Shown here piece by piece: positions 25,504 to 59,649 of a DNA stretch of 64,000 bases. The position numbers and the translations under genes were made by a program. A model generated the notes under the pieces. It did not search any database and was not told the origin of the DNA. It saw only the letters and a list, made by a program, of their open reading frames with translations. The DNA is from Fibrobacter sp. UWB16 (GTDB lineage: Bacteria; Fibrobacterota; Fibrobacteria; Fibrobacterales; Fibrobacteraceae). The DNA lies in the NCBI RefSeq assembly GCF_900215325.1, contig NZ_OCMS01000001.1, forward strand, positions 682,001 through 746,000, in the 5' to 3' direction. Within the stretch, counting starts at the first letter, position 1. The number at the start of each line of letters is the position of its first letter.

Positions 25504-25790
25504 GTGAGCCATAAGCGGCACGGCGTAAGCGTGCCGTGTTGGCGAGAGCGGAGCGCCGACGGAGCTTTTCTATTAAATCAAAGCGAAGCGGGTACTCTGT
25601 GAGCCGGAGGTGACTCGTATTGACGAGTCATCGAAGGCGAGAGCTAGGCGAAGAAGGAACTTGTCCTTTGCACAAGAGCCGAACGGTGCGCATTAGTGAG
25701 CCACAAGTGCCTCGTATCAACGAGGCATGGTGGCGAGAGCGAGACGACGATGGATGTTCCATATTACACAAGAGTCGAGCGGACATCAGA
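25504..25790. repeat. Three tandem ~96-bp units with covarying hairpins
   Basis: Units start at 25504, 25599 and 25696, each with GTGAGCC. Each has a hairpin and then GGCGAGAGC and a less conserved tail. The stems are CGGCACG/CGTGCCG (25516-25536), TGACTCGT/ACGAGTCA (25611-25630) and TGCCTCGT/ACGAGGCA (25708-25727). Stem sequences differ but pairing is kept. Further hairpins without the unit flanks follow (GGGTGCG/CGCACCC at 25837-25856 and TCGAGG/CCTCGA near 25875-25898). The 539-bp gap between the barrel gene and ftsZ holds no convincing ORF. Confidence 0.7.
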
Positions 25791-25935
25791 AGGACCACCC
25801 AGGCAGGGAGACCCGGGTGATCCCTTGTGTTGTGGTGGGTGCGCACTCACGCACCCGTGTGTGTGTGTTCTTTCTCGAGGGCGTGTTCGAAAACCTCGAA
25901 CATACCTGGTCGAATTTCGTTATTGCAATGTAGGG

Positions 25936-25956
25936 CTAATCGTTATTCACGATTAG
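25936..25956. terminator. Hairpin overlapping the ftsZ stop codon
   Basis: CTAATCG and CGATTAG form a perfect 7-bp stem with a 7-nt loop that includes the ftsZ TAA. No T tract follows on the minus strand, so it may stabilise the mRNA end rather than terminate. Confidence 0.4.
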
Positions 25957-27608
25957 AACAAGTCATTCATACGCATGAAGGCCGGCAAGTCATAATCGAC
26001 ATTGCTTTCCTTGAGTGCGTCTTCAGAACCCTTCTGGTTACGCATGAAAGCCGGAGTGCCATAGTCCACAGCGCTGACCTGTTCGGTCTGAGCCGGGCGG
26101 GATTCCTGCTTGATGGTATTTGCGTAGTTGCCGTTAGAAAGCGGATCTGCATCGGCAGCACCCGGCATTTCTTCGGTTTCACGAGCAGTCTTAACAGCAG
26201 CAACAGCCTCTTCAGCATAGCCAGCCTTAGCGTCAAAGCTCGGAGAAGCGAAAGAAGAAGCCGGAGCAAACATAGCGGCAGCGGTATTCACCGGGGCAGC
26301 CTGGCGAGCGGTTGCGCTTGCGTAAGTGCTCTGCGGAGCCGTGTAAGACGGAGTTGCCGGAGCCGTAGCCGGGACAACGCGCTGCGTGACAGCCGGAGTT
26401 GCAACCGTCGGAGCGGCGCTCATAGAAGCGGTCGGCATGGCGGCAGTGTTACGGCCAGCAAGGGCAAGGAAGTTCGTGGTCGGACGCGGAGTAGCAGCCT
26501 GCACCGGAGCAGCAGAGGCCTGATACTGAGCCTGAGCCGGATTCATCTGATAAGCAGCGGTACCGATACCAGCATAGTTCACTGCAGCAGCATTGTTCGT
26601 GCCACCGCAACCCGTTGCAATGATGGTGATGCAAACCTTGTCGCCAAGTTCCGGAAGAGTGATATCACCGACGATGATGTTCGGGTTGCCTTCTTCGCCC
26701 ACAGCGTCGTAAATGTGTTCCATAGCTTCGTTGTGTTCGAGCAAAGAGTAATTTTCGCCATGAGAAACGTTGATGAGCACGCCAGAAGCACCCTGGATGT
26801 CGATATCTTCGAGAAGCGGAGAAGAGAGAGCTGCATCGGCAGCGGCAACACCGCGGCCTTCGCCTTCTGCAGTACCCGTACCCATAAGAGCAGAACCACC
26901 CTTGAGCATAACCTTGCGGATATCAGCAAAGTCAACGTGTACGAGACCATGACGGAACATGATGCTGCAGATGCTCTGCACTGCATTACCGAGGATTTCG
27001 TCAGCCATCTTGAAGGCTTCATCGACAGTTGCGTTCTTGTTCGTATTCTGGATGAGGTTCAAGAGCTTCTTGTTTTCGATAACGATGATCGTATCAGCGG
27101 CTTCGCGGAGAGCGCGAACACCATTCTGAGCCAAGGAATTACGGACGTTACCTTCAAAGCGGAACGGCTTTGTGACAACGGCAACCGTAAGGATTCCGAG
27201 TTCACGTGCAACAGTAGCAACGATCGGAGCAGCACCCGTACCGGTACCACCGCCCATACCAGCGGTAACGAACACGAGGTCCGCACCCATCATAGCCTTC
27301 TTCAAGTCATCGATATTTTCTTCGACAGCCTTACGACCCATTTCCGGATCCATGCCAGCGCCGAGATTTCTCGTGCTCTTTTCACCGATAAGAATCTTGT
27401 GATCGGCAAGGCTCTGGTCAAGTGCCATAGCATCAGTATTGATGGCGTAGTATTCTACACCTTCAATATTCATCTGCTTCATGCGGTTCACAGTGTTACC
27501 GCCAGCACCGCCGACGCCAAACACCTTGACCTTAGCGTTTCTGGAAGGGGTGTCATCACCCGTGATACGAGACATTGCCTCGAAGTTGATGTTTTCAAAG
27601 TCACTCAT
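25953..27608 (-). CDS. ftsZ: Cell division protein FtsZ with duplicated C-terminal peptide
   Basis: This is a 551-residue tubulin-like GTPase that forms the division ring. The nucleotide-binding start KVFGVGGAGGNTVNRM and the tubulin signature GGGTGTGAAP are intact, as is the T7-loop region. The globular part ends near residue 335, followed by an unusually long Ala/Thr/Pro-rich linker (about 335-510). The conserved C-terminal peptide that normally binds FtsA appears twice: VDYGTPAFMR (about residues 514-523) and VDYDLPAFMR (about 537-546, four to five residues from the end). GGGAG precedes the ATG at 27608. It is the last gene of the dcw cluster, 32 bp after ftsA. Confidence 0.97.
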   Translation of the reverse strand: MSDFENINFEAMSRITGDDTPSRNAKVKVFGVGGAGGNTVNRMKQMNIEGVEYYAINTDAMALDQSLADHKILIGEKSTRNLGAGMDPEMGRKAVEENIDDLKKAMMGADLVFVTAGMGGGTGTGAAPIVATVARELGILTVAVVTKPFRFEGNVRNSLAQNGVRALREAADTIIVIENKKLLNLIQNTNKNATVDEAFKMADEILGNAVQSICSIMFRHGLVHVDFADIRKVMLKGGSALMGTGTAEGEGRGVAAADAALSSPLLEDIDIQGASGVLINVSHGENYSLLEHNEAMEHIYDAVGEEGNPNIIVGDITLPELGDKVCITIIATGCGGTNNAAAVNYAGIGTAAYQMNPAQAQYQASAAPVQAATPRPTTNFLALAGRNTAAMPTASMSAAPTVATPAVTQRVVPATAPATPSYTAPQSTYASATARQAAPVNTAAAMFAPASSFASPSFDAKAGYAEEAVAAVKTARETEEMPGAADADPLSNGNYANTIKQESRPAQTEQVSAVDYGTPAFMRNQKGSEDALKESNVDYDLPAFMRMNDLF

Positions 27609-57377: not shown

Positions 57378-58484
57378 ATGGCAAATAAAGTCTATAACTT
57401 TAGCGCAGGACCGTCGGTCTTGCCGGAACAGGCACTCAAGGAAGCATCTGCTGCATGCATCGACTTCGAAAACAGCGGCATCAGTATCCTCTCCATGAGT
57501 CACCGTTCAAAGCCGATTGAAAACATGTTCGCCCAGACGGAACAGTACCTCCGTGAATTGATGGGCATCCCGGAAGATTACGACATCGTGTTCCTCGGTG
57601 GTGGTTGCTCACTTTTGTTCTGCATGCTCCCGATGAACTTCTTGGACCAGAACGCTACGGCCGACTACGCTTTGACCGGCGTTTGGGCAAACAAGGCTTA
57701 CAAGGAAGCTAAGCAGTTCGGTAACGCTCTCGCCGCTTGCGACACCAAGTCTGAAACTTACAGCCGCATCGACAAGAACTTGAAGCTCAGCGACAACGCT
57801 AGCTACCTCCACGTGACCGCCAACAACACAATCTACGGTACGGAATGGCACAACTTCCCGAAGCCGAAGTCCGGCTTCCTCATGGCTGACGTGAGCTCCG
57901 ACTTCCTCGCCCGTAAGATCAACGTGTCTGACTTCGGTGTCGTCTATGGCGGCGCTCAGAAGAACATCAGCTGCGCTGGCGTGACTGTCACGATCATCAA
58001 GAAGGGCCTTCTCGGCAAGGTGAACCGCACCATCCCGACGATGCTCAACTTCCAGACCCACATCGACGCTGCCAACATGTTCAACACTCCTCCGGTATTC
58101 GCCGTGTACGTGATGAACCGCACCCTCAAGTGGCTCAAGGATTTCGGTGGCGTGGACGCTATCGAAAAGGTGAACCGCTCCAAGGCCGCTCTCCTCTACA
58201 GCGCACTCGACAACTCCAAGGTGTTCGTCGGTACGGCTGCTAAGGAAGATCGTTCTATCATGAACGTTCCGTTCGTGTTCAACAAGGACGTCGTTGCAGC
58301 AGACAAGGCCGATGACCTCGCCAAGGAATTCCTCGAATTCGCAAAGGCTCGCGGTCTGCAGCAGCTCAAGGGTCACCGTTCTGTCGGCGGCTTCCGCGCT
58401 TCTATCTACAACGCCATGCCGGTCGAAGGCGTGCAGGCTCTCGTTGACTGCCTCGGCGACTTCGAAAAGAAAGTTCTCGGCTAA
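57378..58484 (+). CDS. serC: Phosphoserine aminotransferase SerC
   Basis: This is a 368-residue PLP-dependent class V aminotransferase converting 3-phosphohydroxypyruvate and glutamate to phosphoserine. The N-terminus YNFSAGPSVLPEQAL, SMSHRSKPIE and the PLP-lysine segment VYGGAQKNI are diagnostic, as is the ending GHRSVGGFRASIYNAMP. An imperfect direct repeat (CCCCTAAAAAGG, twice within 57340-57370) lies upstream; the second copy provides the AAAGGAA ribosome-binding site. Confidence 0.96.
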   Translation: MANKVYNFSAGPSVLPEQALKEASAACIDFENSGISILSMSHRSKPIENMFAQTEQYLRELMGIPEDYDIVFLGGGCSLLFCMLPMNFLDQNATADYALTGVWANKAYKEAKQFGNALAACDTKSETYSRIDKNLKLSDNASYLHVTANNTIYGTEWHNFPKPKSGFLMADVSSDFLARKINVSDFGVVYGGAQKNISCAGVTVTIIKKGLLGKVNRTIPTMLNFQTHIDAANMFNTPPVFAVYVMNRTLKWLKDFGGVDAIEKVNRSKAALLYSALDNSKVFVGTAAKEDRSIMNVPFVFNKDVVAADKADDLAKEFLEFAKARGLQQLKGHRSVGGFRASIYNAMPVEGVQALVDCLGDFEKKVLG

Positions 58485-58700: not shown

Positions 58701-58737
58701 AGCGTGCCGGCAGAAGGCCCGGGCGCATAAACGAAGA

Positions 58738-58770
58738 ACCTCCTCATGGAGCATGAGGAGGTCCTATTTT
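58738..58770. terminator. Hairpin with T tract on plus, weak T tract on minus
   Basis: ACCTCCTCATG pairs with CATGAGGAGGT around GAG. On the plus strand CCTATTTTTTG follows; on the minus strand TCTTCGTTT follows. It may end the ncRNA candidate. Confidence 0.6.
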
Positions 58771-58967
58771 TTGTGTTAGGAGTACGCCATTACGGCGCCT
58801 TGGAGGAGGATTTCGTGGCACGTATGTCCCCGTGCCGGGTATTTTGCAAGGCCCCAACAACCAAACACGGCCTTGCAAAACTCGCGAGATAAGTTTAGAA
58901 CCTTCTTTTTGTTCTCAAAATTACTAACCCATATTCACCCAAAGGCTTTCACTTTCTCGTTTTTACA
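58738..58967 (-). ncRNA. Candidate structured non-coding RNA
   Basis: A consensus minus-strand promoter (58974-59002) is followed by about 230 bp without an ORF but with strong hairpins. These are a 12-bp perfect stem TTTTGCAAGGCC/GGCCTTGCAAAA (58842-58880), a 6-bp GGCACG/CGTGCC stem (58817-58836), GAAC/GTTC (58898-58914), and an 11-bp stem at 58738-58762 that could end the transcript. GTTAG near the 5' end could pair with CTAAC near the 3' end, closing the molecule. No known family is matched; 6S RNA was considered because of size and possible closing stem, but is not shown. Confidence 0.5.
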
Positions 58968-58973
58968 TGAATA

Positions 58974-59002
58974 AAGATACTCTATTAAACAGCGAATGTC
59001 AA
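58974..59002 (-). promoter_or_regulatory. Sigma-70 type promoter without a downstream CDS
   Basis: TTGACA (59002-58997) and TATCTT (58979-58974) are separated by exactly 17 bp. The predicted start is near 58967. No minus-strand gene follows before the convergent serC, so the product would be non-coding. Confidence 0.7.
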
Positions 59003-59149
59003 TAGAAAAACGCATTTTTAAATATTATTTTGCAAATACACCACCTAAACACACTCCCAAAATGTTCTCAAAAATCTAACAAAGTTCTTAAAAAGGTTAA
59101 AACAGAGAAAAAGACCAATAAATACACGTTTTAAACCAAAAATACAAGA

Positions 59150-59253: not shown

Positions 59254-59281
59254 AAAAAAAATGTCCGCACAAAGGCGGACA
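59254..59281 (-). terminator. Terminator of the GerW-like gene cluster
   Basis: On the minus strand TGTCCGC and GCGGACA pair around a 6-nt loop, followed by eight T's. Confidence 0.88.
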
Positions 59282-59313
59282 CAACAAACTCAGGAGAGCT
59301 CAATGACAACAGC

Positions 59314-59649
59314 TTAATTGTCAGCGGGCTTCTTTGCAAATTTATTTGTAATATCGGGAACGATATCCATAATTTTCGAAACGAGGGAGCTATCCTTGGT
59401 AATCGGCATGACGCGCACGTCATCGCCCTTGATAACAAGGAACGCCACCGGATCGACCGAAGCACCACCGCCAGACGCAGACGTATCGCCCTTGCCCTGA
59501 TGGCCGCCAAAGCCAAAGCCTACGGAAACGCGACTCACAGGCACCACAGTCGTATCACCGGCCTGAATCGGTTCACCAATGACAGTTTCCGCCTTCGTGA
59601 TGAAGCGGAGTTTTTCTAAAAGAGTTTCTGCAAGTTTTTCAATAGCCAT
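59314..59649 (-). CDS. GerW/YtfJ family protein
   Basis: This is a 111-residue protein of the GerW (sporulation protein YtfJ) family: AIEKLAETLLEKLRF, then IGEPIQAGDTTVVPVSRVSVGFGFGG, given here in parts (IGEPIQAGDTTVVPVSRV and SVGFGFGG). A Gly/Ser-rich loop, DPVAFLVIKGDDVRVMPI and a C-terminal amphipathic helix follow. The family was named from spore formers but is widespread in non-sporulating bacteria, where its role is unclear. I chose ATG 59649, where the family begins. It is the last gene of a minus operon, 16 bp after a lipoprotein gene. Confidence 0.85.
   Translation of the reverse strand: MAIEKLAETLLEKLRFITKAETVIGEPIQAGDTTVVPVSRVSVGFGFGGHQGKGDTSASGGGASVDPVAFLVIKGDDVRVMPITKDSSLVSKIMDIVPDITNKFAKKPADN

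Follow-up and report, generated by a model that had tools for sequence, protein, structure and literature searches.

A small RNA gene beside serC in the Fibrobacter succinogenes lineage, with two invariant CU-rich linkers

The region between serC and the ytfJ-like gene

The window considered here is the whole 64-kb stretch of the Fibrobacter sp. UWB16 genome that was analysed (64,000 nucleotides). Between the phosphoserine aminotransferase gene serC, which is convergent with it, and a YtfJ/GerW-like gene located upstream of its promoter, the minus strand very probably carries a non-coding small RNA gene (Table 1). The strong minus-strand promoter proposed by the first-pass annotation was borne out. 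Indeed, the exact pattern TTGACA-N16-18-TATCTT has a single occurrence in the window (0.01 expected from shuffles), and TTGACA and TATCTTT are spaced and placed alike in all 15 homologues of an alignment of distinct sequences. From the promoter position, transcription would start at about 58967. The length of ~230 nt given by that annotation should read ~235-245 nt; the terminator-like hairpin does end the RNA, but with a T tract that is weak here (TTCTTCGTTT) and better in relatives (TTCTTCTTTT). Consistent with its statement that no reading frame is present, there is no ORF of at least 60 aa in any frame of the minus strand after the promoter, and the longest small frames vary between homologues, none being common to all.

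On the serC side, a terminator-like GCCTCGGTCATAGACCGGGGCTTTTT belonging to serC itself precedes the RNA gene. On the other side, a terminator-like hairpin (59282-59261) separates the YtfJ-like gene from the RNA. This region downstream of the ytfJ-like gene (59261-59303, minus strand) consists of the hairpin GTGTCCGCCTTTGTGCGGACAT and T8; its weak match to the RyhB model (26.1 bits, E 0.019) looks like the terminator alone.

Table 1. Features of the serC/ytfJ region (window coordinates) and 6S genes found in other genomes of the phylum
Feature	Position	Strand	Basis or remarks
serC (phosphoserine aminotransferase)	57378..58484	+	PF00266, E 1e-35; convergent neighbour
Small RNA gene, non-coding, absent from Rfam 15	58733..58967	-	homologues (L002-L007 etc.), covariation, no conserved ORF
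P5, intrinsic terminator hairpin, 13-14 bp, then TTCTTCGTTT	58735..58765	-	2 covarying pairs
Linker 2, UACUCCUAACACAAAAAAU, second anti-Shine-Dalgarno-like motif, then A-rich stretch	58766..58784	-	unpaired 0.64
P4, small hairpin CGCC-GUAAU-GGCG	58785..58797	-	invariant
Linker 1, AUCCUCCUCCAA, anti-Shine-Dalgarno-like	58800..58811	-	invariant; mean unpaired probability 0.72
P3, hairpin GGCACG-GGGACAUA-CGUGCC, 6 bp	58817..58836	-	stem invariant in 15 sequences
P2, 13-bp perfect hairpin	58841..58881	-	arms 58881-58869 and 58853-58841
5' domain closed by P1, GAGAAUGG/CCAUUCUC-type helix	58885..58959	-	arms ~58959-58951 and 58894-58885
Conserved GCCUUUGGG in 5' domain	58938..58946	-	can pair with CUCCAAGGC (58806-58798)
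Promoter, sigma-70-type TTGACA-N17-TATCTT	58974..59002	-	-35 at 59002-58997, -10 at 58979-58974
YtfJ/GerW-like gene	59314..59649	-	PF09579, E 9.6e-22; upstream of RNA promoter
6S gene missed by Rfam	G056:C18:178207-178322		model R3
6S gene missed by Rfam	G052:C8:168309-168429		model R3

The element TTTTGAGAACA is found in the 5' domain of the RNA (58910-58920, minus strand) and again upstream of the promoter (59063-59073, minus strand). It is also present at G000:C1:631331, C3:72473, C5:58240/58436 and C5:170734/171069, as well as at L080-L083, where a TTGACA-17-TATATT promoter is followed by TTTGAGAAC; at other genomic sites it is often found directly upstream of genes. TTTTGAGAACA may serve as a site for a regulator or as a leader element shared among genes. 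No paralogous RNA genes were found at the paired TTTTGAGAACA sites, which are coding or upstream of protein genes.

Structure, strand and distribution

The several long stems proposed earlier were recovered as hairpins of 13 bp, 6 bp and 13-14 bp, and the minus-strand folding energy of the ~235 bases after the promoter is below that of all 200 dinucleotide shuffles (z = -2.9). The plus strand of the same region folds well too (z = -4.4), so the strand cannot be read from folding alone. In the alignment, which contains 15 distinct full-length homologous sequences, both-sided changes affect 10 pairs of the proposed structure versus 4.6 in shuffles; this covariation exceeds all 500 shuffles, and versions of the structure slid along the alignment are all far lower. 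P2 has both-sided changes at 7 pairs, with 99.5% of its cells paired and 32 G-U versus 0 A-C cells, and P5 has 21 G-U versus 2 A-C cells. Taken together, the 53 G-U versus 2 A-C cells of P2 and P5 place the RNA on the minus strand, as a plus-strand reading would turn all 53 G-U cells into A-C mismatches. Indels interrupt P1 in the alignment; for this helix, arms were therefore exchanged among the sequences, and they pair best within their own sequence, which none of 5000 permutations equalled. Direct covariation thus supports P2 and P5, and the arm-swap test supports P1. The first-pass annotation had named a lack of stem conservation in close relatives as one result that would speak against its RNA; these three helices are conserved there. 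Two other candidate pairings, GCCUUU/AAGGC within the 5' domain and GGGUUAG/AUCCUC, were rejected since covariation gives them no support.

Conservation is concentrated in the 3' half. The 39 nt of AUCCUCCUCCAAGGCGCCGUAAUGGCGUACUCCUAACAC, composed of two CU-rich stretches that flank a small hairpin, show zero variation across homologues, and linker 2 is invariant except for the length of its A run. Mean identity reaches 96% in the 82-nt core, compared with 70% in the 5' part and 84% at serC third codon positions. The linkers have predicted mean unpaired probabilities of 0.72 and 0.64 versus 0.42 for the whole RNA. Both resemble the anti-Shine-Dalgarno (anti-SD) tail of 16S rRNA in its general form. 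In the 5' domain, the sole variation of GCCUUUGGG is a C-to-U change in two rows that retains the pair with CUCCAAGGC as G-U. This pairing, next to linker 1, is a possible pseudoknot or switch, and covariation is absent from it because the only change on either side is C to U.

A DNA search of 61 genomes detected the RNA in 7, each of the same genus. With a covariance model of the 3' core, 4 further genomes were recovered; reading of the region downstream of serC in 30 Fibrobacter genomes gave 3 more copies, and the full-length model one further copy on another contig of G099. The RNA adjoins serC wherever flanks are readable, mostly in the serC/ytfJ gap. All matches in a scan of GTDB genome contigs are Fibrobacter records, several of them named F. 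succinogenes. Among the genomes searched, those in which the RNA was detected (~16) are all of the F. succinogenes type. Nearly complete Fibrobacter genomes, among them G003, G005, G010 and G029, possess serC with no RNA beside it and give only chance matches elsewhere. Distant homologues in other Fibrobacter were sought with the full-length model (R2), whose weak matches there fall on small ORFs, on promoter regions and on the 3' flank of a tRNA. The serC tree intermixes RNA-bearing and RNA-less genomes, with at least 3 changes in RNA presence; the serC genes of G029 and G020 (L045, L046), both without adjacent RNA, group with those of RNA-bearing genomes. An exchange of serC between lineages is one possible cause of this grouping, and gain or repeated loss of the RNA may also fit the tree. 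A mobile origin of the RNA was also considered, and searches of plasmids, phages and viral contigs left it unmatched.

Nature of the RNA and its possible function

The kept promoter, the covariation, the G-U strand signal and the invariant 39 nt together lead us to regard the RNA, with high confidence, as a genuine small RNA gene of the F. succinogenes lineage; conservation and covariation thus give good support to the earlier proposal of a small RNA gene that has a strong promoter of its own and lacks an ORF. It is a new, lineage-restricted sRNA family, of an otherwise ordinary kind of RNA. The region might instead be the mRNA of a small protein or a leader peptide, as suggested by a 57-58-codon frame ending TAC TCC TAA in L002, L004, L012 and L013. 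However, neither the window sequence nor most of the other homologues keep this frame intact, and silent changes are absent from the 39-nt invariant run, so that the conservation is not due to coding and we give this explanation hardly any weight. We give no more to the proposal that a bidirectional terminator and chance hairpins simply lie between convergent genes without any RNA gene: the hairpin at 58738-58762 does have a T run in the plus-strand direction too, and the plus strand also folds well, but the promoter is conserved, the G-U changes are strand-specific, covariation is present, conservation extends over ~240 nt, and serC ends in its own terminator ahead of the RNA gene.

The suggestion of the first-pass annotation that the RNA might be 6S did not survive the comparison. 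In the Rfam scan that it had proposed, RF00013 matches neither the RNA, even at E = 10, nor anything else in the genome. Of 81 genomes of the phylum, 21 have a 6S-like RNA that this model detects, but 0 of 35 in the Fibrobacter family (f1). A phylum 6S model (R3) built from 18 of these Fibrobacterota 6S RNAs finds 6S in two further families missed by Rfam (G056, 83.6 bits; G052, 56.3 bits); across the 38 Fibrobacter-class genomes tested (families f1-f3) it finds no 6S at a convincing level, and its best score against the RNA region (5.9 bits, filters off, shifted onto the promoter) is no meaningful match. Published 6S RNA forms a rod with a closing stem, a single-stranded central bubble and a terminal loop (PMC4064990). 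Here the supported helices (5' domain, hairpin and terminator) follow one another along the RNA with no central bubble; the closing pairing GCCUUUGGG/CUCCAAGGC, though possible, would cross P1 and not span the RNA. That the RNA is a diverged Fibrobacter 6S, which would bind the RNA polymerase holoenzyme by mimicking a promoter, would fit its size, its strong promoter and its terminator, and the 6S place is vacant in Fibrobacter, as no other 6S was found there. Yet a phylum model able to find families on which it was not trained leaves it unmatched, its architecture is different, and the RNA is patchy within the genus, many of whose genomes lack it, nearly complete ones among them; we consider this identity very improbable. 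One candidate for the missing Fibrobacter 6S is thereby removed, and 6S is undetected in all tested Fibrobacter-class genomes, although other classes of the phylum have a recognisable one.

The RNA combines its own promoter, an intrinsic terminator and the absence of a conserved ORF with a conserved region that, from its invariance and predicted unpaired probability, would be accessible for pairing, as expected of a regulatory sRNA. We infer, at about even confidence, an anti-SD mechanism in which a stand-alone trans-acting sRNA pairs with mRNAs through its CU-rich linkers. In detail, the two invariant, mostly unpaired linkers AUCCUCCUCC and ACUCCUAAC (also delimited as UCCUCCUCC and CUCCUAAC), CU-rich, conserved and flanking the small hairpin, would pair with Shine-Dalgarno (SD) regions and so block or tune the translation of several mRNAs; the 5' block GCCUUUGGG may mask linker 1 by pseudoknot-like pairing. 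SD use in this genome is moderate: in a roughly defined set of genes, an SD-like motif accompanies 13 of 42 first ATGs versus 7% of internal ones. Among the complementary sequences found, the best is GTTAGGAGGA, which lies ahead of genes for TIGR02147-like regulators and lipoproteins. Definition of a target class by GTTAGGAGGA was abandoned, the sequence being about equally frequent whether the RNA is absent (8.6 per genome) or present (10.9). In one 13-kb region (L103, G000:C1:1281500-1294500), GTTAGGAG occurs 8 times on one strand, as an SD-like site before TIGR02147-like regulator and lipoprotein genes, and four copies lie directly before terminator hairpins with no following gene.

The main rival to mRNA pairing is a protein-binding role, in which the frozen 3' half of a structured RNA would be a binding site (sponge or ribonucleoprotein part) and not a pairing region. 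The invariance of all 39 nt, small hairpin and flanks included, while other stems are free to vary in sequence, fits such a site, as does the lack of a match for Hfq; against it, no repeated binding motif of a CsrB-type sponge was seen, and the unpaired parts that never vary are rich in C and U and complementary to SD sequences. We hold this role possible but somewhat doubtful. As regards Hfq, a common but not required partner of sRNAs, PF17209 is unmatched in the genome. A bolder form of the anti-SD proposal, which we think improbable, is that of a global regulator acquired by the F. succinogenes lineage, whose two frozen linkers would mimic the anti-SD tail of 16S rRNA, with one of them hidden by an internal pseudoknot switch. 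If true, a global anti-SD regulator would sit in a class without recognisable 6S and in a genome without recognisable Hfq.

F. succinogenes is a leading rumen cellulose degrader, and our literature search found no study of its small RNAs. The present work supplies a specific and testable pairing hypothesis for an sRNA of this lineage and describes a concrete, well-conserved sRNA gene with a covariance model that could go to Rfam.

Relation to known RNAs

With 6S (RF00013), the RNA shares a similar size and a gene of its own, but differs in architecture, gives no match and is not kept through the genus. Its 3' end has a weak likeness to ftsZ-DE (RF02985), with a hairpin, an AACACAA linker and a terminator hairpin; however, it scores 23.3 bits versus a gathering score of 72.2 and adjoins serC, not ftsZ. 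A true ftsZ-DE RNA (97.5 bits), a known motif, is present in the window at 25788-25856 (minus strand), in the 3' region or downstream of ftsZ (ORF 25953-27608, minus strand). CUCCUCC-type anti-SD motifs are shared with alpha-r14 (RF02344) of alphaproteobacteria, where they lie in hairpin loops and not, as here, in linkers; the weak match of 21.2 bits is far below the gathering score of 58.8. The Rhizobiales sRNAs SmelA075 and SmelA099 likewise carry an anti-SD loop motif, CCUCCUCCC (PMC3927594). In the NmsR sRNAs of Neisseria, two completely conserved UC-rich anti-SD regions repress targets, one of them being the stretch between stem-loops (PMC5362039). No evident sequence relation links our RNA to NmsRA and NmsRB, and it is longer, with a 5' domain, in a genome where Hfq is unmatched. 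Nevertheless, the stem-loops, the invariant UC-rich anti-SD segments, the own promoter and the intrinsic terminator are alike, and NmsR is the clearest precedent for the anti-SD pairing proposed here.
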